Shown here one piece after another: positions 2,163 through 39,395 of a stretch of DNA of 39,395 nt. Numbering within the stretch: position 1 is the first letter of the stretch; each line of letters begins with the position of its first letter. The DNA is from a virus. A program made the position numbers and the translations under genes. The stretch lies in IMG/VR virus record IMGVR_UViG_3300048672_000578, positions 1-39,395 of that record; one strand, written 5' to 3'. Below the pieces are notes generated by a model. It saw only the letters and a program-made list of their open reading frames with translations. It ran no database searches and had not been told where the DNA came from.

Positions 2163-5100
2163 TTATACAGTATAGAACACATTTAACGGGTGTAATATAA
2201 ATTTATAATTATTTGTATTATCAAATTGTAATTTAAGTTTAATATAATTTCCTCTAATACGTTCTCTTTTATTTTGTTGTCTAGGAATTAATGCATTCCA
2301 ATCTCTAAACTTACGTCTAAGGTTGTTATTTCTACCTAATATTAGATGTTCTAATGAACTATTTTGATAATCACTATATGCTTGTATGTGTGTTAATGTT
2401 TTATCTGGTTGATCTATATTATTTAAATAACATTCAGATTTAAAATTAATATTATCAAACACGCAGTCTACATCGTATTCAGGGTTTACATTTAAAATAA
2501 TATAAGAAGGATAATATTGCCCAAAGAATTTATTATATTCTCCATCATATTGTTTGTAAATAGATTTAGAATTAGGTTCTACAGCAAGAAAATGATTTCC
2601 TTTACTAAGATATCTAGTTGGTAAATAATCATATCTAGAAACAAATGTTTTTGTATTATCATCAAAATTTAATGTAAATGATTTATTATTTTGTAAAAAA
2701 GTGAAAAATACTTCATTATTTAAATAATCATATCCTGTACATATACCTGAATTAATAATTGGATTATCTCTATTTATATAAGTTTCATCTATATTATTTA
2801 CAAAAAATGTATGCATTCCTTTTAAATCAGATAATTCGTCTACATTTTGTCCTGAACATATTTGAAGATTATTGTTAATACTATCATAAAAATAAAAAGC
2901 TGTTGGTGAATTAATAACACTCCATTTATTTCTAGTACCTAATTCTGTAGATAAATATTTATATCTTTCTAATACATTACCTGTACCTAATTGTACAGCA
3001 ATACCATCAGAACCTTGAACTTGTACACGAGGTTGAACAGATATGCATGCTATCGCATTATCTTGAATAGCATATAATTCATCTTTAAAATTATGTAAAG
3101 AATTAATAGAACCATATTTACCATCAAGTGTCATTACTTCATTTTGTAAAATATCTGTCCAATTATCTATAATTTCACCAGCTACTTTTACCTTACTTGT
3201 AATAATATTAGTATCAAAGTTTTTTACTTTTTTAAATAAATAATTATTATCTCTATTTAATATTAGATTTTGAGTTTGTGAATAAACATAATTATAATTA
3301 TGATAGTCAGCATCTCTAATTTGAAATTTAGAATCCCAATTACCAAAACTAACATCATTTCTATTTTTTAAATCAATAGTTGTTTCAGTTGTATATTCTA
3401 TTATTTCTTCAAATTGTTTAGTACCCTGTTCTTTAACATCAGTTTCTTTTCTAACAATTCTTAAAAATCTAAAATTTTGTACATATGTGTCACCAGGTGA
3501 TTCAATAGTAACAACATTATTAATTATATTTTGATAGTCACCTATTTCTATATAATTTGTTCTTTTTTTATCTTCATAAGTATTACCACCATATATACCA
3601 CCTAAATAAATTTCTTCATTAGATTTTACAAGTTCACCTATTAAACCGTTATTGTCACCATCTAAACCTGAATCATAAAATAAATTTTCTAAAGATTTTC
3701 TATTCCAGTTTTCTACAGTTATATCATTATCACCTGTAACAAACGTAATACATCTATTATTATCACTATTAACACTTACAATTCTTCTACCGTATACACC
3801 ACCATCTGAATAACTACTATCTCCATCAGTTAAACAACTTTGTAACGAATTAGAATATCTATAATTTAAATCATTATTATATGTTGTAAAATCTTGACCT
3901 TTTTCAGTTATTTCAGGAATACCGTATAAATCAAATAATGTATTATTACCTTTATTATAATAATTTGTAAACGTATTAGTATGTATATTTATATCTACAA
4001 TATTACCGTTTGATTGTTTAACTAAACTTGAGGCTCCAGAAACAGACGCACTTATATTTATTGTACATTTATAATTTACTGCTGTATCAATAACAAGAAA
4101 ATAATCATAAGTTTTATCAAATAAAGAAGATGGTGATAAAGTATCATTATGTGTTATATTTTGAACACCTATTACATTTGTTAATTCTGATAAAACATTT
4201 TGTCCATTTTGATCTGAACATATCTTAATAGTATATGGTGTTGATATATTTAAAATATCTGGAAATATAGTATAAGAAATTAAAGAATGATTAACCGTTG
4301 GTGTTAATTTAATACTTATACTATTATTATAATTACTATTATAAATAATACTATTAGACGGATCAGAACCTGAAATTATATTTAATGTATTTGGTATATT
4401 TACTATAATATTTGATGAAAAAATATCAGTAATTAAAATATTACCATATGCTCTATAAAATAAGTTTGTTTCAATTGTATTTGGTTCAGATCCACCAGGA
4501 TGTGCTAAAATACCTTTATCTAAATTATTATAAGCACTACCTATTATATTTTTTCTATAATTAGAATAAAATGGTGAAATACCTGAATATACTTTAGATT
4601 CTGTGTTTATTGAACCATCTGTTAAATTTTCTTCTTTATTCCATGAAGCATTATATACATTTTTTAAAGAACCTTTTATTCTAAGTTTTAAACCAGAAGT
4701 AAGTGAAATGTTTTTATTAAATAATATTTCTGGTGAATACAATTGTATCATTGGATTGAATTGCCAAAACTTACCAGAAGCATCACTATCTCCATAATAA
4801 GGAGATGTTACTTCATTTGCTGGATTTGGACCACCACCAACATGTACTAAATTTTCTAAATGTTCACATCTTTTTAAAGGTTGTGTGTTACCATATAAAA
4901 ATGTTTCATTACAATTTCTTAAAAGAATATTTGGTAATTTTGGATTCTCCTTACTAAATTGCTTTACATCTGAAGTTGAATAAGACTCAATATTAGATTT
5001 ATGATTAAACATCATAGTACTTAATATACCATTAGAAACAATTGTTCTATCATTAAGAGTTCTTTCTGCTATTAATACTTTATAACCAATAGGTATATCA

Positions 5101-26928: not shown

Positions 26929-29181
26929 CTATATTGCTTCTCCAATATTAGATATAAAGTTTTTGTTATAGTTTCTTTCAAAAAATTTATCTTGTGATAA
27001 TTTCTTAATTTGTTTATGTTGATTTTCTATTGCAGAGTTTGTTCTTTTAACTCTATCTTCTCTTAAAAGAAATAACATACCTGCGGCAGATACACGGTCA
27101 AAGTTACCATCACTATTCCAAGCAACACATTCTTCAAGATAAGGTATACTTCTAACATGATGTAATTTTAAACTCATATCTTCTTCGTCACCTTCATTAT
27201 ATCTTGTAAGCATATATTGTGCTTGTAACAATCTACCCCATTTGTTTATTTCTTTATTAGCATGTGTACCTTTAGCTTTATTACCGTATAAATTGGTTGC
27301 TTTAACCATATCCATATCTTTAAGTATTTGAGGTACATCACATAAATAATGTAAACAATTTCTTGCATCAAAATAACTAAATAAACCTTTTAAGTTACTT
27401 TCATAGTTAGCTTCTGCATTATAAAACTTTAACATTCTTAATGCAGTTTCATACGCATCATTTGCTAATCTTGGTCTACCAGTATATTCTGCAACTATTC
27501 TATCTGTAAATGTATCCATTACAAATATACTAAATAATGATGTTCCTGTATCTGCATCAATAGGGTCAATACCTGCAATATATCTACCACGTTGTATTTC
27601 ACCATTTGCATTTTTCTTAGGCATTTCAAATATTTCTAAACAACCTGTACGATCTGTATCTGAACTATCATATGCTCTAAGTGGATATTTATCACCTGTT
27701 GGTCGCCAATCAACATCACCATTTTCAGTATAAACTAATTCTCCAATATAATGTTCTGCTAAAAATGATTCTTTTTTAGGACCAATACTTTCAAGATAAT
27801 CTTTTATATCTGCAACAGGAAATACTGTTCCTTCAGTACGCATAATAGCTTCCTGTGGAGTAATAGGCTCCTCTGCTTTCTTTTGAGTAATAGCTCTAGC
27901 ATCAGATGAATTATATTTTACCTCATGTCTATCTAAAAGAATTTGAATTAATGCTTTTATTATGTCTGGTTCACCTGTAGATAAATCATAACATTCATTA
28001 CGATTTAAGTAAGCACCCCAAAAGAAACCACATTCTAAATCACCATTAGCTCCTTTATCATAAACATTTGGTATTCCATATATGTTAAATGCTCCTGGTT
28101 TATAAAATAGTTTTTCAGAACCTTCAAATGAAGCTCCTTCAGTACCACCTGTTCCACCTGCTAACATAAATCCAAATGCTACATCACCATCTTCCACAGC
28201 TTTTCTATTTACGTTCCATGCTTTTTCAAGGTTAGGAAATAATCCATCTTCTTCATAATGAATATATGGACCACGAATACCCCTTGCTTTATCAGGGTTA
28301 TCTTTTAAAGATATACATTTAACAGATGATAATAAGCCTTTACGTGAACCATATTCATCTTTATAACCTAACTGTACATACATCTCTTTTGTTGCATCTA
28401 CAGTACGCATACGAGGTAATGGAGTATGTTCTGCTATCCAGTCTAAGTTATCTAATATTTTACCCCATATTCCACTATCTCCAGATAAGAATGTTTTTTC
28501 AGAAGCGAGGTGGTGATTAATATTACCAGTACCTCTAAATACAAACATATTTCTAGGTGACTCTGAAGCATTCTTAAAACTAAATCCAATACCACGAGTT
28601 TTTAATACTTTACCATGTTTACCATTACGTTTAGCTTGAGCTGTATAATGAAAATATAAATAATCACCTAACCAAGGTTTAGCAAACTTACGTACACGTT
28701 CTCCTTGTGATTTACCACCTTTACCACCTGTAGCAACTGTATCAACTAACCATATTGGACTATAGTTCCAATAAAAATATAATTCACCAGGAATCCATTC
28801 TCCATCAGATTCACGAACCATACCATGTTTCCATCGTCTAAGTTCTTCTTTCCAAAATTCAGCATATTCAGATTTAGGATTACTATTAGGTGGTAAATTA
28901 GTATATCGTTTATTCTTTTCAAAAAAGATAGCTCTTTCTCTAAAGTAATCTACATCTTCTAATATATGTGGATTAGTAACATCTACAATGATTCTACCAT
29001 CATTATATAACTCTGTATGTTTAGGTCTATTTTTAGCAAATCCACGTATGTGTTCAGGTGCAATAAGATTCTTAATAAACTTTACAGTTGATATATATTC
29101 AATTAAATTTTCATATACTTCTCTAGGTAATTCTTTTTTTAGTTCATCTGTTATTGGAGATTGATATTTATTTAATTCCAT
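26929..29181 (-). CDS. terL: Terminase large subunit (packaging ATPase-nuclease)
   Basis: 750 residues. The ATPase domain has a deviant P-loop-like segment KTRGIGFSFK (residues 194-203) and a Walker B-like YIHYEEDG (306-313). The RNase H-like nuclease domain begins with AGIDPIDADTG (about 536-546), whose first Asp fits metal-binding motif I. Overall pattern (NYSPIWLVDTVATGGK, RGIRGPYIHYEEDG) is the crAss-like TerL that pumps and cuts DNA during packaging. The start overlaps the end of the GroEL-like gene by 10 nt, implying coupled translation. Confidence 0.92.
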   Translation of the reverse strand: MELNKYQSPITDELKKELPREVYENLIEYISTVKFIKNLIAPEHIRGFAKNRPKHTELYNDGRIIVDVTNPHILEDVDYFRERAIFFEKNKRYTNLPPNSNPKSEYAEFWKEELRRWKHGMVRESDGEWIPGELYFYWNYSPIWLVDTVATGGKGGKSQGERVRKFAKPWLGDYLYFHYTAQAKRNGKHGKVLKTRGIGFSFKNASESPRNMFVFRGTGNINHHLASEKTFLSGDSGIWGKILDNLDWIAEHTPLPRMRTVDATKEMYVQLGYKDEYGSRKGLLSSVKCISLKDNPDKARGIRGPYIHYEEDGLFPNLEKAWNVNRKAVEDGDVAFGFMLAGGTGGTEGASFEGSEKLFYKPGAFNIYGIPNVYDKGANGDLECGFFWGAYLNRNECYDLSTGEPDIIKALIQILLDRHEVKYNSSDARAITQKKAEEPITPQEAIMRTEGTVFPVADIKDYLESIGPKKESFLAEHYIGELVYTENGDVDWRPTGDKYPLRAYDSSDTDRTGCLEIFEMPKKNANGEIQRGRYIAGIDPIDADTGTSLFSIFVMDTFTDRIVAEYTGRPRLANDAYETALRMLKFYNAEANYESNLKGLFSYFDARNCLHYLCDVPQILKDMDMVKATNLYGNKAKGTHANKEINKWGRLLQAQYMLTRYNEGDEEDMSLKLHHVRSIPYLEECVAWNSDGNFDRVSAAGMLFLLREDRVKRTNSAIENQHKQIKKLSQDKFFERNYNKNFISNIGEAI

Positions 29182-30644
29182 TTATCTTTATTTAAAACAA
29201 TACAGTCTGTAGATAAAACAGTTTTAGCTATAGATACAGCATTTTCTAATGCACATCTTGTTACTTTAAGTGGGTCTATAATATTTTTATCAAACATATT
29301 TTTTTTAATTTCATACCCTATAATATCTTCAGGATAAATTATTTTATATGGTTGTAATATAGAATAAAGTAATTTAGCTTCAATTGTTTCTGGTTCTTTT
29401 TTAATATTAGACCATGCTTTTGTTAAAGCAACTCCACCACCTTCAACAATACCTTCTTCTAATGCACAAGCTACAGCTTTAACTGCATCATCATATCTAT
29501 CATACTTTTCTTTAACTTCAATCTCTGAACCTCCACCTACTTTAATAAGTGCAACTTTAGCTGTTAAATTTTCAATACGTTTATTAATTATTTCAACATC
29601 GTGTTTTGTAAGTTCTTTAGATTTAGACAGTTCTGTAAGATTTTCTATAATATCAGCAACATCTACATCATCATGTTTGATAAGTAATGAATTATTTTTA
29701 GTTATCTTACATGATTGTAAATTACCAAATACACCTGTATGAATTGTTTTAATATTTGTAACAATAATAGAACCTGTAAAATCAGATAAATCTCTTAAGA
29801 AATCTTTTCTAACTGGACCAAATCCTGGAGTTTTAATTACACAAAGTTGAATATTACCACTTAGAACATTAGATTCTAATTTACGTAATTCTTTTTCAGT
29901 TATATCTTCTACAATAATTAATAATGGTTTTCCTGATTGAGCAAATGTATTAAGTACATTTTGCATTGGAACTAAATCTTCTATTTTACCATCTATTAAT
30001 AATACAGACGGTTTATCAAAAACACATTCACCTTTTTTAAGATTATTTACAAAGTGTTTAGAAAAATAAGATACATCTAATTGCATACCATTAATTAATT
30101 CTACACTATCTTTTTGATTAGTAGATTCTTCAACTTTAATTATATTAGAAAAGTTATAAGCCTGTTGAATAATATCCCCAATCTGTATATCATTATTAGC
30201 AGATATACTAGCAACATATTTAATGTCTTCACGTTTTAATTCCTTTGAATTAAGTTTTAATTGTTCAATTACTTTTGGTATAATTTCATCAAATGCTTTA
30301 TTGATTTCATTTGAATCAAAATCTTTTAAATTTTGTATAAAAGCATTAGCTAATACAATAGCTGTTGTAGTTCCATCTCCAGCTAAATCAACTTGTAATT
30401 CAGCTACTTCTTTAACTAATTGTGCTCCTATATTCTCTATTGCATTTTTAAAATTTATTTCTCTTGCTACAGATACACCATCTTTTGTTATCTTATATTT
30501 ATCAAATGCAGTATTATCTGGTATAATAACTGTTTTACCATTTGGTCCCATAGTCTTAGCTACAGCATTACATAACTTTTGTATACCATTAAATAATAAA
30601 TCTCTAGCTTCTTTTTCAAAATATATTTCTTCCATATTATTCAT
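29172..30644 (-). CDS. groEL: GroEL-like chaperonin (phage Hsp60)
   Basis: 490 residues, clearly homologous to GroEL along the whole length. ATP-site motifs are intact: TMGPNGKTV (31-39), ITKDGVSVAREI with Asp55 (equivalent to Asp52), AGDGTTTA with Asp91 (Asp87), and Asp386 in YDDAV (Asp398, needed for hydrolysis). The apical domain has KPLLIIVEDI and KTPGFGPVRKDFLRDL, and EEGIVEGGGVAL closes the intermediate region. About 20 residues are missing before the DPLKVTR motif, and there is no Gly-Met tail. It overlaps the upstream gene by 8 nt and terL by 10 nt; a GroES-like gene is encoded upstream. Likely folds virion proteins. Confidence 0.93.
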   Translation of the reverse strand: MNNMEEIYFEKEARDLLFNGIQKLCNAVAKTMGPNGKTVIIPDNTAFDKYKITKDGVSVAREINFKNAIENIGAQLVKEVAELQVDLAGDGTTTAIVLANAFIQNLKDFDSNEINKAFDEIIPKVIEQLKLNSKELKREDIKYVASISANNDIQIGDIIQQAYNFSNIIKVEESTNQKDSVELINGMQLDVSYFSKHFVNNLKKGECVFDKPSVLLIDGKIEDLVPMQNVLNTFAQSGKPLLIIVEDITEKELRKLESNVLSGNIQLCVIKTPGFGPVRKDFLRDLSDFTGSIIVTNIKTIHTGVFGNLQSCKITKNNSLLIKHDDVDVADIIENLTELSKSKELTKHDVEIINKRIENLTAKVALIKVGGGSEIEVKEKYDRYDDAVKAVACALEEGIVEGGGVALTKAWSNIKKEPETIEAKLLYSILQPYKIIYPEDIIGYEIKKNMFDKNIIDPLKVTRCALENAVSIAKTVLSTDCIVLNKDKWN

Positions 30645-34404: not shown

Positions 34405-34770
34405 TTATTTTTCATATTTTTTTAAATATTTTACAGCTTCATTTAATAAGTCAACACTATCTCTAAATTTTCCTAATGCTGTATTACAAGTATCACATAA
34501 TAAACCTCTAACATTTCCTGTAATATGACAATGATCTACAGATAATCTTCTTTTTGATTTATTTGGATGTTTACATATTTCACAACAATAATTTTGTTTT
34601 TCTAATAATTTATCATAATAATCTAATGTTATTCCGTATTTAGACATTAAATGTTTTTCTCTATAATTTTCAACAGAACATGGTGTACATACAGAAGCAT
34701 AATAACCATTTTTACGTTTATTAAAATAACTTGTTTCTTTTTCTTGTTTACAACAACTACAAATTCTCAT
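34405..34770 (-). CDS. Endonuclease VII family HNH nuclease
   Basis: 121 residues. CSCCKQEKETSYF with VCTPC forms one zinc-binding group; CCEICKHP and CDTCN form the second. LSVDHCHITGNVRGLLCDTCNTALG (quoted in two parts in families) carries the HNH-type catalytic His and is the signature of recombination endonuclease VII (T4 gp49, PF02945). The C-terminal LLNEAVKYLKKYEK is the usual helix. Members resolve branched DNA before packaging, but free-standing copies also act as mobile nucleases. It has its own promoter and stands alone between an ncRNA terminator and the next promoter. Confidence 0.88.
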   Translation of the reverse strand: MRICSCCKQEKETSYFNKRKNGYYASVCTPCSVENYREKHLMSKYGITLDYYDKLLEKQNYCCEICKHPNKSKRRLSVDHCHITGNVRGLLCDTCNTALGKFRDSVDLLNEAVKYLKKYEK

Positions 34771-34785
34771 ATCAATAATTTTTTA

Positions 34786-34816
34786 CAAATATACAAAATA
34801 TATTTTAATTATGCAA
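34786..34816 (-). promoter_or_regulatory. Promoter for endonuclease VII gene
   Basis: Minus-strand CTTG region at 34814-34817 and TATATTTG at 34786-34793, 20 nt apart. Full -7 match, partial -33 match. The start codon is 16 nt downstream of the -7 box. Confidence 0.75.
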
Positions 34817-34866
34817 GTTTTTTATCAATTATTTTTTAAAAAAAGTGAAAATAATTTAAAAGACAT

Positions 34867-34900
34867 AAAAAAACCCACTAAAACATAAGTTAAAGTGGGT
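34867..34900 (-). terminator. Terminator of the minus-strand ncRNA
   Basis: A perfect 7-bp stem on the minus strand (34894-34900 with 34073-like partner at 34873-34879) followed by seven Ts. It ends the noncoding transcript that begins near 35152. Confidence 0.88.
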
Positions 34901-35153
34901 AATGTATATAAGTTTCCTATAACTATAACATTAAAGTTATAAGTTTATTTTAAATTAGTTAATAATTAAACACAAAAGGGTTTCCCACGAAACTGATGTT
35001 TGTAGGAAGCTCTTGGCTTATATAGTTTGTTGAAGTCGTCGTACCCTTAAAACCCGTTATCTATTCATCTATCCTCTTTTGCCCTGGACTGTATATAAAA
35101 TATACTATGAAATAGCAACAACCACCTATATAAGTTGCATAATTATTTTACTG
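34867..35153 (-). ncRNA. Independent structured ncRNA, about 285 nt, family unknown
   Basis: No coding frame, but a perfect promoter (35159-35190) and a perfect terminator bound it. The RNA can form several helices: 35126-35134 with 35017-35025 (9 bp), extended by 35116-35121 with 35027-35032; inside it 35107-35115 with 35061-35068 and a hairpin 35091-35105; then a GTTTC/GAAAC hairpin at 34980-34993. The order and nesting are consistent with one folded RNA. It is not recognisably tmRNA, RNase P or SRP RNA. The promoter carries the conserved upstream element also found before portal and scaffold genes. Confidence 0.72.
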
Positions 35154-35158
35154 AGCTA

Positions 35159-35190
35159 CAAAGATACAACATTTATTTGACAAATCCAAA
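35159..35190 (-). promoter_or_regulatory. Promoter of the minus-strand ncRNA
   Basis: Minus-strand TTTG at 35187-35190 and TATCTTTG at 35159-35166, 20 nt apart: full match. The conserved upstream element lies 30 nt further upstream. Confidence 0.88.
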
Positions 35191-35219
35191 TATTTTAGTG
35201 ATTATTTTTCAAAAAGTTG

Positions 35220-35240
35220 TATTTAGTAATAGCTTTTATT
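35220..35240 (-). promoter_or_regulatory. Conserved upstream promoter element, copy 3
   Basis: Minus-strand AATAAAAGCTATTACTAAAT in an intergenic region, 30 nt upstream of the ncRNA promoter. Here it does not overlap a gene end, so its conservation is not explained by coding. Confidence 0.78.
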
Positions 35241-35252
35241 GTAAAAACACTA

Positions 35253-35284
35253 CAAAGATACAAAATAAAAATGACAATTCCAAA
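35253..35284 (-). promoter_or_regulatory. Second tandem minus-strand promoter
   Basis: Minus-strand TTTG at 35281-35284 and TATCTTTG at 35253-35260, 20 nt apart: full match. It lies 94 nt upstream of the ncRNA promoter and lacks the upstream element, so the ncRNA may be made from two differently controlled starts. Confidence 0.8.
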
Positions 35285-35369
35285 TTTTTTTAAAATTTTT
35301 TTTGAAATTTTATTTGTTGATGAAAGTGTGAGATAAACCAAACATACACCCCGACCTCAATACAATTTT

Positions 35370-35486
35370 GGGCTTCGCCCCACTGCAAGTTTTTGCAAGC
35401 TACCTTGTAGTAGCAACGTATCTATACGGAAAGAATAGAAATACTAGACTGTTGTTCACAGCGCTGAAGATATATTACATATTCAG
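35370..35486. other. Cascade of six short hairpins; origin or hairpin-promoter candidate
   Basis: Six consecutive inverted repeats in an otherwise AT-rich noncoding stretch: GGGC/GCCC (35370-35380), TGCAA/TTGCA (35384-35397), GCTAC/GTAGC (35399-35414), CGTA/TACG (35417-35428), CTGT/ACAG (35449-35461) and CTGAA/TTCAG (35464-35486). The block lies between the minus- and plus-strand transcription units and is clearly richer in G and C than its surroundings. Arrays of this kind occur at replication origins and, in phages with a virion RNA polymerase, as hairpin promoters. Neither role is proven. Confidence 0.5.
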
Positions 35487-35520
35487 TAGCAAGCTCACAA
35501 CTTACTGTGTGTTTCACTTA

Positions 35521-35595
35521 ATGAAGCTTAATCTTGAGGATTTTGCAATGGAAGTTAACAAGGAGATAGAAAGCCTTGTTTTAATATTAATATAA
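35521..35595 (+). CDS. Possible 24-residue peptide
   Basis: ATG 35521 to TAA 35595 encodes MKLNLEDFAMEVNKEIESLV plus four more residues. Composition is protein-like and amphipathic, and it ends just before the palindrome at 35591-35607. There is no Shine-Dalgarno sequence and no clear promoter. It may be chance. Confidence 0.25.
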   Translation: MKLNLEDFAMEVNKEIESLVLILI

Positions 35596-35607
35596 GATAA
35601 TCTTATA
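35591..35607. promoter_or_regulatory. 17-nt palindrome overlapping a promoter, operator candidate
   Basis: TATAAGATAATCTTATA has 8-nt perfect arms around one base. Its right end overlaps the -7 box TATATTTG at 35606-35613 and it occupies the spacer up to where a -33 box would be. A dimeric regulator is the likely reader. Confidence 0.6.
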
Positions 35608-35613
35608 TATTTG
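35606..35613 (+). promoter_or_regulatory. Plus-strand -7 box lacking a -33 box
   Basis: TATATTTG matches the -7 consensus, but no TTTG is found 19-21 nt upstream. The nearest TTG is 27 nt away. The leader from about 35620 to 35682 can form a perfect 8-bp hairpin (35622-35629 with 35645-35652). Confidence 0.55.
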
Positions 35614-35682
35614 TCTAACCTTGTGTTATATCTATGAATCAGAAATAACACACTAATATCGACGGATTTACGTATCAATCTT

Positions 35683-36072
35683 ATGTCAACTGAAAAAACA
35701 GCATTAAAAAGCTTATCAGCTACAGTAACTACGGTTATCACAACAACTAAAGAGGGTGCTCCATTAATGAAGAAACGTGCAGACGGTTCTGAATCACCTG
35801 TTGCATTGTGTGGTCTTAAGCTTACAGAGGGACCTCACACAGGTAAAACTCTTTGGGCTCAAAGAACTTTAGTAAACCGTGACGGTGTTGCTAAAGAACC
35901 TGTTGCTAAAGGAGATAATGTATTTGCTACATTAACTTCTGTTGTCGACGGTAAACCATTCTTTGAAGTAACAACTTCTGCGAATGCTTCTGATGAAGAC
36001 TTATTGTCTGCGTTTGGTGCAACTGAAGTTGTTGCTACAACTGAAGAAGTAGAAATACCTCTTGCACAGTAA
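35683..36072 (+). CDS. Probable abundant early protein, OB-fold-like
   Basis: 129 residues. Ala/Thr/Val-rich with less AT-rich codons than almost all other genes here. VALCGLKLTEGPHTGKTLWAQ, then VAKGDNVFATLTSVVDGKPFFEV, looks like a beta-barrel with alternating strands; the C-terminus is acidic (EEVEIPLAQ). A small basic-to-acidic beta protein could be a single-stranded DNA-binding or nucleic-acid-associated protein, but no signature confirms this. It is the first gene of the plus-strand arm, has a palindrome-controlled promoter and an excellent terminator, and so forms a single-gene unit that is probably strongly expressed. Confidence 0.6.
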   Translation: MSTEKTALKSLSATVTTVITTTKEGAPLMKKRADGSESPVALCGLKLTEGPHTGKTLWAQRTLVNRDGVAKEPVAKGDNVFATLTSVVDGKPFFEVTTSANASDEDLLSAFGATEVVATTEEVEIPLAQ

Positions 36073-36080
36073 TAAAGATT

Positions 36081-36105
36081 AGCCTCTTCGGAGGCTTTCT
36101 TTTTT
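36081..36105 (+). terminator. Strong intrinsic terminator
   Basis: AGCCTC, UUCG tetraloop, GAGGCT, then TTCTTTTTT. It begins 9 nt after the stop of the gene at 35683-36072. The tetraloop makes it very stable. Confidence 0.95.
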
Positions 36106-36189
36106 AATGTACATTCATTGTCCTTTACACATAAAAATACCTTATATGCACCACGCATTTGATATTTTCTACCTTATTATATATACCAC

Positions 36190-36377
36190 AAATACAGTGT
36201 TTAGCTATTGCTCTCATTTATGTAGTCGTTGATTAGGAATCTACAACTGTATTTTATTTTATAACTTGTTGATTGTGATGGTTTTACATCATCGTTCACT
36301 CTAGTTTCAGTGATGTAAATGTGTGGTTATTAGTTCTCTCATGTTCTAATAAAGCTCTCAAATCCATCACATCAACA
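36190..36377 (+). ncRNA. Candidate structured RNA with two multi-helix domains
   Basis: This gene-free stretch folds into two domains. Domain 1: AAATACAGT 36190-36198 pairs with 36246-36254 (9 bp) and encloses TGTAG/CTACA (36220-36224 with 36240-36244). Domain 2: 36267-36281 pairs with 36364-36377 (14 bp, one bulge) and encloses two hairpins, TTTACATCA/TGATGTAAA (36283-36291 with 36311-36319) and TTATTAG/CTAATAA (36327-36333 with 36346-36352). CTCTCA occurs three times in unpaired positions. The strand is uncertain, since inverted repeats fold on both, but the plus-strand arm makes plus more likely. No promoter is clear. Confidence 0.55.
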
Positions 36378-36521
36378 CTTTATTTAACACTTATAGCTTT
36401 TTTAAAACGTATTATCATTATAAATTACTTATAATTATAAATATTAATTATTCAATCCAATACAAATTTATAATAATTTTATTACAAATAATACAAATAC
36501 TAACTGACTAAAACTAATATT

Positions 36522-37052
36522 ATGGAAACTTTAATTAAATACAGTACTAAATGGAGTATAGAAGAAACTAAATATTTACGTGATTTAAAAATTAAAGGTA
36601 AGAATCTTAATGAAATTTATATACTATTTAATAATAAATTTACAACTCAAAGAACAAAAGATTCTATAGAAAAAAAAATAGAATCAATATTTAAAGTAGA
36701 TTATAATTTTAATATGGATAAAATAATTGTTGAAAATGTTATTAAATATCCATTAAATTTACAATATGCTTTTGAAATAACCGCAAAAATATTAAATAAA
36801 AATTATCCTCAAAAAGATAAATTATTTACAAAACAAGTAATTCAAGGTAGATATTATTCTTATATAAAACATAATTATAATATAATAACTACAGGTTCTA
36901 AAATAGGTTTTAGTATTAATATTAAAAATCAACATAAAGATAAAAATAAAATATTAAAACAAAATCTAACATCTTTTCAAGTATTAATAAAAGAAATATT
37001 AAATCTTTCAGATGATGAAAGAAAAAAAATAATTACATTATTAACAAATTAA
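36522..37052 (+). CDS. Myb/SANT-like putative DNA-binding protein
   Basis: 176 residues. The N-terminus KWSIEETKYLRDLKIKGKNL followed by RTKDSIEKKIESI has the tryptophan-helix-turn-helix layout of Myb/SANT-like DNA-binding domains (about residues 10-58). The rest is basic and helical, with KQVIQGRYYSYIKHNYNI in the middle and LSDDERKKIITLL at the end. It is an early-arm gene preceded by the leader GACTAAAACTAATATT. A regulator role is inferred from the domain. Confidence 0.5.
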   Translation: METLIKYSTKWSIEETKYLRDLKIKGKNLNEIYILFNNKFTTQRTKDSIEKKIESIFKVDYNFNMDKIIVENVIKYPLNLQYAFEITAKILNKNYPQKDKLFTKQVIQGRYYSYIKHNYNIITTGSKIGFSINIKNQHKDKNKILKQNLTSFQVLIKEILNLSDDERKKIITLLTN

Positions 37053-37397
37053 CAACACTTTAGTCAGTCAATTACAGGTGATGCTGGGTTGACTGATTAT
37101 AATAAACTAGCTGTAACTGAAGCAGTATAAATTCAGGTGAGTATTGGTGTTTTATCTATTAATAACCAATTACAATATAACAAATAGATTTGTGGTTCCT
37201 GCATATATTAAGGGAAATGAGCTCATTATTTTATCTATTTTAGAGATGATGCAATAAACAAATAGATATTTTATAAAAGAACAATAAACAAAAGTCATCA
37301 GCCCTTTGAGAACTATTAATAAAGTACATTATAGTCTGGTTCCACGTAAATGATGTCTAACTCGATGGTGGTGTAGAGTTTATTTTTAAACAAAACT
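37053..37397 (+). other. Noncoding hairpin-rich region, leader or ncRNA
   Basis: No gene is seen in 345 nt. It contains a 10-bp stem (37063-37072 region with the TTGACTGATT segment at about 37090-37099), two look-alike hairpins with ATCTATT/AATAGAT arms (37154-37160 with 37183-37189; 37233-37240 with 37260-37267), the 12-nt palindrome AATGAGCTCATT (37216-37227), ACTAT/ATAGT (37314-37318 region) and AACTC/GAGTT (37359-37363 with 37376-37380) followed by a T-rich stretch. This density suggests a structured transcript. Confidence 0.45.
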
Positions 37398-37493
37398 ATG
37401 TCAAAGAAAATTAAATTATATGGTAGATTCTTACGAAAAGAATTATCATTCAAAAAACTAGCAAAAGCTGCTAGTGAAGTTCAAAATTATTAA
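37398..37493 (+). CDS. Small basic protein, 31 residues
   Basis: ATG 37398 to TAA 37493 encodes MSKKIKLYGRFLRKELSFKK followed by LAKAASEVQNY. It is strongly basic and helical. It ends 19 nt before the next ATG in an AT-rich leader. Good amino-acid composition and close packing with the next gene support it; function unknown. Confidence 0.5.
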   Translation: MSKKIKLYGRFLRKELSFKKLAKAASEVQNY

Positions 37494-37512
37494 CAAATTA
37501 AATTTAAACATT

Positions 37513-37968
37513 ATGGTTTCAACAGGAATTTTAATAGGAATTTTACTATTCTTTGGATTAGTAGCGTATGTATTATCTAAAACAGAAGTACCTGAATATT
37601 TAGATAATCAAAACAAACCAATTACATCACAAGATGGTCTTGAAGATGTAATTAAAGAACCATCAACAGAAGATATTGTATTAGAAAACAATTTAGTATT
37701 AAAGAAAAAACTATTAGATGTTGATTTTATTGAAAAAGGTGCACAATTTGATGAACCTATTAATTATGATTTAATTGATAAGAAAACTTTAGATGTTAAA
37801 GAAGAAATTGATAAACCATCAGCAACTGAAGAATTTCAAAATACTGAAGGAGGTAGACAATTAACAGAACATATTAAAGAAATTGTTAAACTAAATCCTG
37901 ATTCTAAAAAACGTTTAACAAAACGCAGTCGTAATACTGTTGATAAAATTGTTAAAGAAAAGAAATAA
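37513..37968 (+). CDS. Single-pass membrane protein
   Basis: 151 residues from ATG 37513; an earlier GTG in frame (37474) lies inside the previous gene and is rejected, and ATTATG is the same start context as other plus-strand genes here. One N-terminal transmembrane segment (VSTGILIGILLFFGLVAYVL) is followed by an acidic soluble part and a strongly basic C-terminus (DSKKRLTKRSRNTVDKIVKEKK, in part). The basic tail could bind nucleic acid. No family recognised. Confidence 0.6.
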   Translation: MVSTGILIGILLFFGLVAYVLSKTEVPEYLDNQNKPITSQDGLEDVIKEPSTEDIVLENNLVLKKKLLDVDFIEKGAQFDEPINYDLIDKKTLDVKEEIDKPSATEEFQNTEGGRQLTEHIKEIVKLNPDSKKRLTKRSRNTVDKIVKEKK

Positions 37969-38061
37969 TATAAATAATAAGGACGTGTAATAAGTTTATA
38001 CCTACGTTCAGAACAAACTGCTGTTGTTCACAGAGGGTGAATTTATATTATTAACAGTTTC

Positions 38062-38080
38062 ACACTTCTGTAAAAAGTGT
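38062..38080 (+). other. Hairpin just upstream of the tmRNA 5' end
   Basis: ACACTT (38062-38067) pairs with AAGTGT (38075-38080), 5 nt before the mature tmRNA 5' end. It may belong to the precursor leader and mark processing. The wider gap 37969-38085 holds no gene; it also contains a second copy of CTGTTGTTCACAG at 38021-38033. Confidence 0.4.
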
Positions 38081-38085
38081 AATAA

Positions 38086-38451
38086 GGGGGTGACAGGCTT
38101 TGACATAGGTCATAGTAAATATAATAATCAGCCAGAGAGATAACTGTAAACTAAGGTGAATACAAGAAATGACAAGAATACGATCGCTCAAACAAGAGCA
38201 AACATGCAAGTAGTTCATAACATCTTAAATGGTGGAACTGAAGTTAAATCAAACGACATTGTCGAATTTGAATTAGCAGCATAATAGAATTTTAGATTAT
38301 TTTAAGATTTCTTCATTAGATTAAATGAAGTGGTGGAATCACTGAGTAATCAGTTGACCTCGTGTATCTAAACACATAAATCTATAGTAAAGCTGTAATA
38401 ATTATTATATTGAATTTATTTATGGACGCGGCTTCGATGCCGCCACCTCCA
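38086..38451 (+). ncRNA. ssrA: Transfer-messenger RNA (tmRNA), phage-encoded
   Basis: The acceptor stem GGGGGUG (38086-38092) pairs with CACCUCC (38444-38450), with a G-U pair at position 3 (38088-38448), the alanine identity element, and discriminator A38451. The T arm is GCGGC, UUCGAU, GCCGC (38428-38443). UAGUU at 38211-38215 precedes the tag frame starting CAU 38216, ending GAA UUA GCA GCA UAA UAG. Downstream are hairpins CTTCAT/ATGAAG (38311-38330) and CTGA/TCAG (38342-38353) in the pseudoknot region. The 3' end reads CUA where CCA would be. Length about 366 nt is normal. It would rescue stalled ribosomes and tag proteins for proteolysis; partner SmpB is not in this window. Confidence 0.93.
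38216..38284 (+). other. tmRNA tag reading frame, 22 codons
   Basis: Directly in register after UAGUU, the frame CAU AAC AUC UUA to GAA UUA GCA GCA encodes HNILNGG at the start and VEFELAA at the end, followed by UAA UAG. With the alanine carried by tmRNA the tag would be 23 residues. The terminal LAA is the ClpXP-type degron; the residue before it is Glu where host tags usually have Ala. Confidence 0.8.
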
Positions 38452-38454
38452 CTA

Positions 38455-38644
38455 TATTTAATCTCTAAAATGGCAGAGAATGAAATTATATTATCAGTTA
38501 CGGCCATCATCAAGTAATAATTATTAATTTTAATAATATGAAAGATTTCATCCCGTCAATTAATATAATAGAAATTTGTAGTGGCGCCGCTACTTAAATA
38601 GAACGAAATTAAGGGTCTTAGTAAATGTTAGAGATACTGAATCC
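38455..38644 (+). other. Noncoding hairpin chain downstream of tmRNA
   Basis: No convincing gene. Successive inverted repeats: TCTCT/AGAGA (about 38462-38480), ATTATTAA/TTAATAAT (about 38520-38537), ATGAA/TTCAT (38538-38551) and the GC-rich GTAGTG/CGCTAC (38578-38593, one G-U pair, loop GCGC). It may be the tmRNA trailer or a separate small RNA; two very short frames (15 and 19 codons) here are not convincing. Confidence 0.4.
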
Positions 38645-38672
38645 GTCTATTACAAATAGACCCTTATTTTTT
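38645..38672 (+). terminator. Terminator with a competing upstream pairing
   Basis: GTCTATT (38645-38651) pairs with AATAGAC (38655-38661), a perfect 7-bp stem with loop ACA, followed by CCTTATTTTTT. The 3' arm can instead pair with AAGGGTCT at 38611-38618 (8 bp with 38658-38665), which would prevent the terminator from forming. Confidence 0.65.
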
Positions 38673-38716
38673 AAATTATAAATTATAATAAATTTATTAA
38701 CTAACAATTAATTATT

Positions 38717-38821
38717 ATGAATAATCCTCAATACATTAGATTATGGTTTCCAGATGGTGAATTTACTTATGTACATGTTTGGAATACTATTGATTTAAAT
38801 AAATGTTTAAAACTTAACTAA
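38717..38821 (+). CDS. Small protein, 34 residues
   Basis: ATG 38717 to TAA 38821 encodes a 34-residue protein starting MNNPQYIRLWFPDGEFTYVH. Composition with Trp, Pro and His is protein-like, and the AT-rich leader TTATTAACTAACAATTAATT resembles those of other plus-strand genes. The next gene starts 2 nt after its stop. Function unknown. Confidence 0.5.
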   Translation: MNNPQYIRLWFPDGEFTYVHVWNTIDLNKCLKLN

Positions 38822-38823
38822 TT

Positions 38824-38931
38824 ATGATAAGAAAAATAATATTTAACATTAAAATGAATTACGAATGGTATTTGATTAAGTTATTAATTATTGTTTTAAT
38901 AATTTATCATACATATTATTTATTTAATTAA
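38824..38931 (+). CDS. Small single-pass membrane protein, 35 residues
   Basis: ATG 38824 to TAA 38931. A short basic N-terminus (MIRKIIFNIK) and one hydrophobic segment (LIKLLIIVLIIYHTYYLF) suggest a membrane protein. It is translated right after the preceding small gene (2-nt gap). Function unknown. Confidence 0.5.
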   Translation: MIRKIIFNIKMNYEWYLIKLLIIVLIIYHTYYLFN

Positions 38932-38954
38932 AATTAACTAAAACTAATAACATT

Positions 38955-39257
38955 ATGAAAAATATTAATGAAATAGATATTTCAAAAAGATGTGGAATTA
39001 AACCAGAAAACACTATTTATGATTTTTTAGAAAAAGTTACAACAATTTCTTTTAGAAAAACAATGAAAAAAGTTATCGCTTGGAAAAATGATACTAATCC
39101 AAATTTTAGAAAACATGGATTAGATGCTGAAATACGATATACACCTTATTTAAAATCTAAATTAAAAGATATTCCCGAAGATGTATTAAAAAATTATTCT
39201 AGCGGATGGTGTACAGATGGTAAAAATATTTATATTTACAACCATTGTTGTCGATAA
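38955..39257 (+). CDS. Hypothetical early-arm protein, 100 residues
   Basis: Basic, with a helical N-terminal half (SKRCGIKPENTIYDFLEKV) and a beta/turn-rich end containing Trp and a CC pair (SGWCTDGKNIYIYNHCC). The leader AACTAAAACTAATAACATT directly before ATG is shared with other plus-strand genes and supports this start. No family recognised. Confidence 0.55.
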   Translation: MKNINEIDISKRCGIKPENTIYDFLEKVTTISFRKTMKKVIAWKNDTNPNFRKHGLDAEIRYTPYLKSKLKDIPEDVLKNYSSGWCTDGKNIYIYNHCCR

Positions 39258-39279
39258 ACTAAACTAACAAAACAACATT

Positions 39280-39395
39280 ATGAAAAAACAACAATCATCT
39301 ATATCTCAACTTGAAAAAGCTGGATATAAAGGAACAAAAGTGATGTCAATGATTAAAGCTATTGAATCACAAGAAATCTTTAAACATTTACGTCT
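39280..39395 (+). CDS. Hypothetical protein, C-terminus off window
   Basis: Starts at ATG 39280 after the AT-rich leader AACTAAACTAACAAAACAAC and runs off the right edge with 38 codons visible (MKKQQSSISQLEKAGYKGTK at the start). The visible part is basic and helical. Too little is present to assign a function. Confidence 0.5.
   Translation, partial: MKKQQSSISQLEKAGYKGTKVMSMIKAIESQEIFKHLR

Follow-up and report, generated by a model that had tools for sequence, protein, structure and literature searches.

What a phage tmRNA appends to the unfinished chains of an infected cell, and how far that tag departs from the tag of the host, is the question raised by a locus in the window, i.e., the whole 39,395-nt stretch of IMG/VR record IMGVR_UViG_3300048672_000578 analysed here. 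tmRNA tags are mainly regarded as short degrons. From the letters alone, a sequence-only reading of the window had proposed a complete tmRNA inside a crAss-like phage genome, with a 22-codon tag that ends in ELAA instead of ALAA and that may differ from the tag of the host.

The window is a Crassvirales fragment. It matches the Crassvirus capsid family PF23898 (E 4.3e-173) and the muzzle protein family PF25731 (E 2.5e-187), which bear out the crAss-like assignment, and among annotated phages its capsid comes closest to that of Cellulophaga phage phi14:2, at 62.9% identity. The window also contains a GroEL/Cpn60-like chaperonin gene at 29172-30644 (-) (PF00118, E 2.5e-43), a family that is matched in 15 of the 50 tmRNA-bearing records. 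The stretch at 37042-37106 (+) is mostly non-coding, contains the inverted repeat AGTCAGTCAA / TTGACTGATT and has no Rfam match; at least 10 otherwise diverged tmRNA-bearing contigs (L018, L025, L039, L058, L075, L085, L130, L136, L143 and L144) share it at 83-96% identity over 52-84 bases. Two long stretches without obvious genes, 34900-35660 and 36080-36500, lie on the early-strand gene side.

The gene at 38086-38452 (+), the sole one that ARAGORN reports in the window, is a complete one-piece tmRNA, as the sequence-only reading had claimed. An Rfam scan of the window found a single family, RF00023, at 38086-38454 and over the full length of the model (1-374 of 374), with 58.4 bits (E 1.7e-20) against a gathering score of 47 bits, and the search with tmRNA models that had been suggested as a check therefore came out in favour of the claim. 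A permissive Rfam scan of 34700-39395 found no family besides tmRNA. The fold energy of the RNA beats those of 100 of 100 dinucleotide shuffles (z -4.68), and the minimum-energy fold pairs the acceptor stem, helix 2 and T stem. The parts of the RNA are as follows.

38086..38452 (+), tmRNA gene (ARAGORN limits, Rfam and fold)
38086..38092 (+), 5' strand of the acceptor stem, GGGGGTG, with G3 (38088) opposite U (38448)
38118..38128 (+), 5' strand of helix 2, pairing with 38401-38411 (minimum-energy fold and Rfam alignment)
38129..38151 (+), conserved core CAGCCAGAGAGATAACTGTAAAC at the PK1 position, with the hairpin CAG-AGAGATAA-CTG
38401..38411 (+), 3' strand of helix 2 (Rfam alignment and minimum-energy fold)
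38428..38443 (+), T arm GCGGC-TTCGAT-GCCGC with a 6-nt loop and covariation of the T stem among 89 distinct relatives
38444..38450 (+), 3' strand of the acceptor stem, CACCTCC, followed by the discriminator A 38451

The acceptor stem with G3-U, T arm, stop pair and ELAA end named in the earlier reading are all present in the sequence. CCA is not encoded, the genome having ACTA after the acceptor stem. Compensatory changes are found at acceptor positions 4-7 among the 89 distinct relatives; positions 1-3, including G3-U, are fixed in the relatives by the search pattern, and only the G3-U pair of the window itself counts. tmRNAs typically possess four pseudoknots. The Rfam alignment spans the pseudoknot region of the window tmRNA, and the PK1 position is occupied by a hairpin whose stem covaries and whose loop is constant among the relatives. 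A promoter scan was uninformative (10 found, 9.8 expected).

The T loop of the window has 6 nt (TTCGAT) rather than 7, and its closing pair is C-G rather than G-C; 6-nt T loops are found in 4 of the 89 distinct sequences, including that of the window. The T arm is letter-for-letter the same as that of the unrelated tmRNAs on contigs L002-L005, which have the T arm alone in common with the window and are of the permuted type, and a T-arm 27-mer used as a probe of viral contigs retrieved solely such unrelated permuted tmRNAs. For the window itself, a permuted two-piece tmRNA (RF04321) is ruled out by the linear order and the full-length RF00023 match.

The start of the tag was placed by comparison with relatives and host tmRNAs. 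Of 97 distinct phage entries, 92 have UAA(A/U)(U/C) just ahead of the tag frame and G(G/A)N as its first codon; the five exceptions are the window, L085, L139, L137 and the truncated L133. In host Bacteroidota tmRNAs, the loci of which were picked by their tag, GENNYALAA begins with GGC GAA AAY after TTTTAAA(T/C) or a similar sequence. The window has GAAAT before GAC AAG AAT (38166-38179). Because its homologue L095 has TAAAC before GAC AAG AAT, GAC 38171 is assigned as the resume codon, and the tag is therefore taken as 37 aa long, not the 22 codons counted in the sequence-only reading. The window has the frame-setting A at -4 and a G instead of U at -5; in E. coli tmRNA, A at -4 sets the frame and G for U at -5 is tolerated (PMC2481249). 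An open tag frame, A at -4, a hydrophobic end and a stop are all present in the window tmRNA, in which the parts of the tag are assigned as follows.

38166..38170 (+), resume context GAAAU with A at -4, homologous to UAAAY of relatives and hosts
38171..38281 (+), tag frame of 37 codons, DKNTIAQTRANMQVVHNILNGGTEVKSNDIVEFELAA (comparison with relatives)
38189..38230 (+), conserved motif QTRANMQVVHNILN, consensus Q[IV]xANMxxV[HF][NS][LI][LI], with Q, A, N and M invariant and V near-invariant
38231..38269 (+), variable linker GGTEVKSNDIVEF, differing in length and sequence in relatives; a low-confidence tail in the structure model
38270..38281 (+), C-terminal ELAA, a presumed ClpX-type degron (AA at the end of 85 of 92 distinct tags; function by analogy, PMC8512704)
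38282..38287 (+), tandem stops TAA TAG (sequence and ARAGORN)

The UAGUU at 38210-38214, previously regarded as the resume signal, is in register as had been stated, but it represents two Val codons inside the tag. A start at this position was rejected because Val-Val is without counterpart in KVFSL-type tags and the Q, A and N upstream are conserved as amino acids. The start called by ARAGORN, GCA 38198 (28 aa), looks too late on comparative grounds; ARAGORN tag starts disagree between closely similar phage tags, and the program is often inconsistent in placing the tag start for these phages. The phage tags range from 26 to 50 aa, with a median of 35. The residues that precede the terminal AA vary, and the ELAA end, correctly noticed before, is ordinary variation among phage tags rather than a special change of ALAA. 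The phi14:2 tag ends in LAMVA and those of Calle and phi40:1 in AVGV; as some tags are without LAA, the degron is not strictly kept. Sequences from phage tags include ANMEAVNAILNLEVAVGV and ANMTVVHNILNG.

The core CAGCCAGAGAGATAACTGTAAAC, 23 bases long, is present in 112 IMG/VR stretches and absent from 84,980 species genomes, and each core-bearing stretch with enough sequence has an open frame with A-N-M downstream. A degenerate DNA pattern for VVHNILNG, built regardless of the RNA, retrieved 42 stretches, 40 of which are tmRNAs. The Crassvirus capsid is over the cut-off in 41 of 50 tmRNA-bearing records, where it falls into a close (E near 1e-160) and a divergent (E near 1e-30) class. Over 41 bases the RNA matches Cellulophaga phage phi14:2 at 97.6%, within short open frames since withdrawn by RefSeq, and cmscan finds an unannotated phi14:2 tmRNA at record position 4031-4502 with 46.0 bits, slightly below the gathering score. 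The isolated Flavobacterium phage FpV4, which has a crAss capsid, possesses the tag GNTNNSVVSLEDNAQVEANMNMAFSLIREDVAVAA, and the identical tag is found in 28 records. The motif is present in the cultured phage phi14:2 and recurs in phages of the FpV4 type and in Pervagoviridae, where phi38:1, phi40:1 and Calle do not differ in the 5' part of the tmRNA and have the tag GNNTNAVNAQIEANMEAVNAILNLEVAVGV; a crAss-type capsid was not found in Calle or phi40:1. Annotation of this gene as tmRNA is found solely in Calle records. Isolates with unannotated tmRNAs are phi14:2 (KC821624.1, 4031-4502; L006), phi40:1 (KC821612.1, 26803-27164; L273) and FpV4 (KT876724.1, 81947-82361; L272). Searches of crAss001, Kolpuevirus, PhiCrAssBcn25, cr111 and cr108 from Bacteroides or the human gut gave just tmRNA fragments of 11-12 bits. 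Short-peptide tblastn gave no match with the window tag and recovered near-identical relatives with the FpV4 tag.

In 135 viral contigs and the window, Q-x-x-A-N-M-x-x-V lies between variable-length linkers and upstream of a C-terminal AA-type degron, and the conservation of the tag frame in related phages, proposed earlier as a check, thus extends to 135 other contigs. Of the 136 readable tag blocks 73 are distinct, and in these Q(-3), A, N, M and V(+5) are the same while the wobble bases vary (GCT/GCA/GCC/GCG, 57/11/4/1; AAC/AAT, 41/32; GTA/GTT/GTG, 35/33/5). When a tree is made from the RNA minus its tag, 44 changes at third positions and 1 elsewhere are counted in the codons for Q, A, N and V, and selection therefore acts on the peptide. 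At columns +8 and +9 the second base stays T and the first and third change, giving Leu, Ile or Met. As the remaining columns also differ in sequence, the excess over all 13 codons is weaker (third positions 201 vs. 139 and 83, permutation p 0.017). The tree blocks were selected by a loose motif pattern, and the stronger statement is therefore that the RNA core alone led to no tmRNA without ANM. Between the window and contig L016, 27 of 28 residues are the same in the common half of the tag, and 8 of the 9 differing codons are synonymous. The L016 record has a divergent capsid alone (family match E 7e-30), and the near-identity of the tags despite this divergence suggests that lineages exchanged the tag and that selection followed. 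An AlphaFold peptide model of the tag predicts a helix at residues 2-20 (pLDDT ~83) followed by a low-confidence tail (pTM 0.38). Comparisons of a tag profile with PDB and of the tags with Pfam and PHROGs gave no convincing match, and the motif is absent from other long frames of the phage loci examined.

Cellular tmRNA was found in 147 of 149 Flavobacteriaceae genomes, scoring 117-180 bits on RF00023 compared with 58 for the window. Among 49 ARAGORN calls at sampled Flavobacteriaceae loci, 48 tags are of the GENNYALAA type with 9-10 aa and one looks misread; 26 of the calls are exactly GENNYALAA with one stop. The motif is absent from the 48 tags read. The difference from the host tag is therefore larger than had been proposed, as 37 aa with a phage-specific internal motif stand against 9-10 aa. 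One Flavobacteriaceae genome has a second, apparently decaying tmRNA copy (L313, 2762-3173; 49.3 bits) with the tag GENNYALAA and a mismatched acceptor stem.

Searches for partners of the tmRNA and its tag found SmpB in 0 of 50 tmRNA-bearing phage records (ten control genomes positive), SspB in 0 of 38 phage records and 0 of 4 host genomes (E. coli and Caulobacter controls positive) and a ClpX-like AAA+ protein over the cut-off in 2 of 38 phage records. Recognisable SmpB and SspB are thus missing from the phage records searched; since some of these are fragments, absence is weak for any single record and consistent overall. On these counts phage-encoded SmpB, SspB and ClpX-like AAA+ proteins were set aside as partners, and so was SspB-dependent tagging, SspB being missing from the 38 phage records and the 4 host genomes alike. 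A conserved neighbouring gene was also discarded, as the commonest families lie near just 37 of ~138 loci and none is common to most carriers.

We propose, with a probability of roughly 0.55, that the phage tmRNA is functional, draws on host SmpB and encodes a bipartite tag of a docking helix and a ClpX-type degron. The computational basis is the tmRNA with its tRNA-like end, the tag frame, the conservation of the motif at the peptide level and its absence from sampled host tags. The phage tmRNA would act with host SmpB, AlaRS and EF-Tu on stalled ribosomes of the infected cell, where its 37-aa tag would replace the 9-aa tag of the host on the unfinished chain. The helical motif Q[IV]xANMxxV[HF][NS][LI][LI] would dock onto a partner protein, flexible linkers would join it to the C-terminal ELAA degron, and the degron would deliver the tagged chain to host ClpXP, such that stalled ribosomes are cleared and the tagged products pass via the docking partner. 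A docking site plus a degron is the likeliest reading of this layout, by analogy. We infer that the RNA is active in the cell, that its products are destined for ClpXP, that the motif docks and that the phage benefits; it may also replace the host tmRNA and act late in infection.

That the gene is a phage tmRNA of the ordinary kind whose tag is simply long, in which release and the degron alone matter and the inner stretch is a spacer conserved through recent ancestry or RNA structure, appears unlikely. A longer stretch before ALAA improves adaptor-free degradation by ClpXP in vitro (PMC8512704), linker lengths vary freely, and many tags have a recent common ancestry with recombination; however, the 44-to-1 third-position excess at Q, A, N and V is not predicted by RNA structure or ancestry alone, and the motif persists in both capsid classes, in FpV4 and in Pervagoviridae. 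Rather less credence is given to the helix as a payload that acts on a host protein, the ribosome tunnel or a protease, with tagged chains as carriers or decoys. The predicted helix, the phage-only distribution in the searches made and the tags without LAA ends would be consistent with it, but the AA end kept in most tags would tend to destroy a payload.

We consider it most improbable that the RNA is dual, with the AUG of ANM also starting a small protein (MQVVHNILNGGTEVKSNDIVEFELAA in the window). This AUG is invariant in all readable relatives, but Q, A and N upstream of it are invariant too and with synonymous changes, and translation therefore runs through from upstream; with these selected codons, a small ORF that begins on its own at ANM is unlikely. 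Hardly any weight is given to a functionless passenger or remnant, be it a tmRNA captured from a host or the residue of an integration site. Integration into host tmRNA genes is known and has served to explain phage copies (PMC11590407), and the window gene has just 58 bits against 117-180 for Flavobacteriaceae genes. On the other side, it is complete, has covarying stems and a selected tag that is unlike sampled host tags, its core is absent from the 84,980 species genomes, and no integrase happened to be noticed in the window.

Based on the preferred reading of a working tmRNA with a bipartite tag, infection by these phages probably reprograms the marking of unfinished proteins in the cell. 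In a large phage group the tag has grown to ~35 aa, about four times the length of the likely host's, with an inner motif held by selection on the peptide, and this conservation points to a putative partner of the tag. It is possible, and advanced here tentatively, that this is a separate trans-translation class, in which a phage-specific docking helix with a dedicated partner causes tagged proteins to be handled unlike host-tagged ones, and that the module has spread among at least three Bacteroidota phage lineages by descent and exchange. Why phages carry tmRNAs is testable in cultured Cellulophaga baltica with phi14:2, phi38:1 or phi40:1.

Phage tmRNAs are known, in 402 of 18,146 genomes (PMC9004378) and in Maribacter phage Panino (PMC11590407), and tags in the tmRNA database are most often 10 aa long (PMC11915505). 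The tag class looks undescribed: no description of the motif or of a crAss-like phage tmRNA was found in the open-access literature searched, subscription literature being outside its scope. Melnitz, Bxz1 and DS6A also have a phage tmRNA or tmRNA-like RNA that presumably works with host SmpB (PMC9004378; PMC4131195). Unlike the window, Melnitz has a two-piece RNA, Bxz1 is a mycobacteriophage and DS6A has the tRNA-like domain only, so that they differ in form or host lineage or are tag-less, the comparison here being one of RNA form and host lineage. Like the Flavobacteriaceae host tmRNA, the phage RNA is in one piece, with an Ala-type G3-U acceptor, UAAAY before a G-starting codon and an LAA-type end, whereas its tags have 26-50 aa and the ANM motif in place of a nearly fixed 9-10 aa. 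In the E. coli tag, AANDENY is the binding site for the adaptor SspB and ALAA that for ClpX (PMC8512704). The proposed order of the phage tag, a docking part and then a ClpX degron, resembles this SsrA tag by analogy, not by membership, as the phage motif differs in sequence, is a predicted helix and occurs where SspB is missing from the phages and 4 host genomes. Cellulophaga phage Calle (Pervagoviridae) is reported to have one tmRNA (PMC8776804); no crAss-type capsid was found in this phage, and its tmRNA encodes the same tag class as that of the window.
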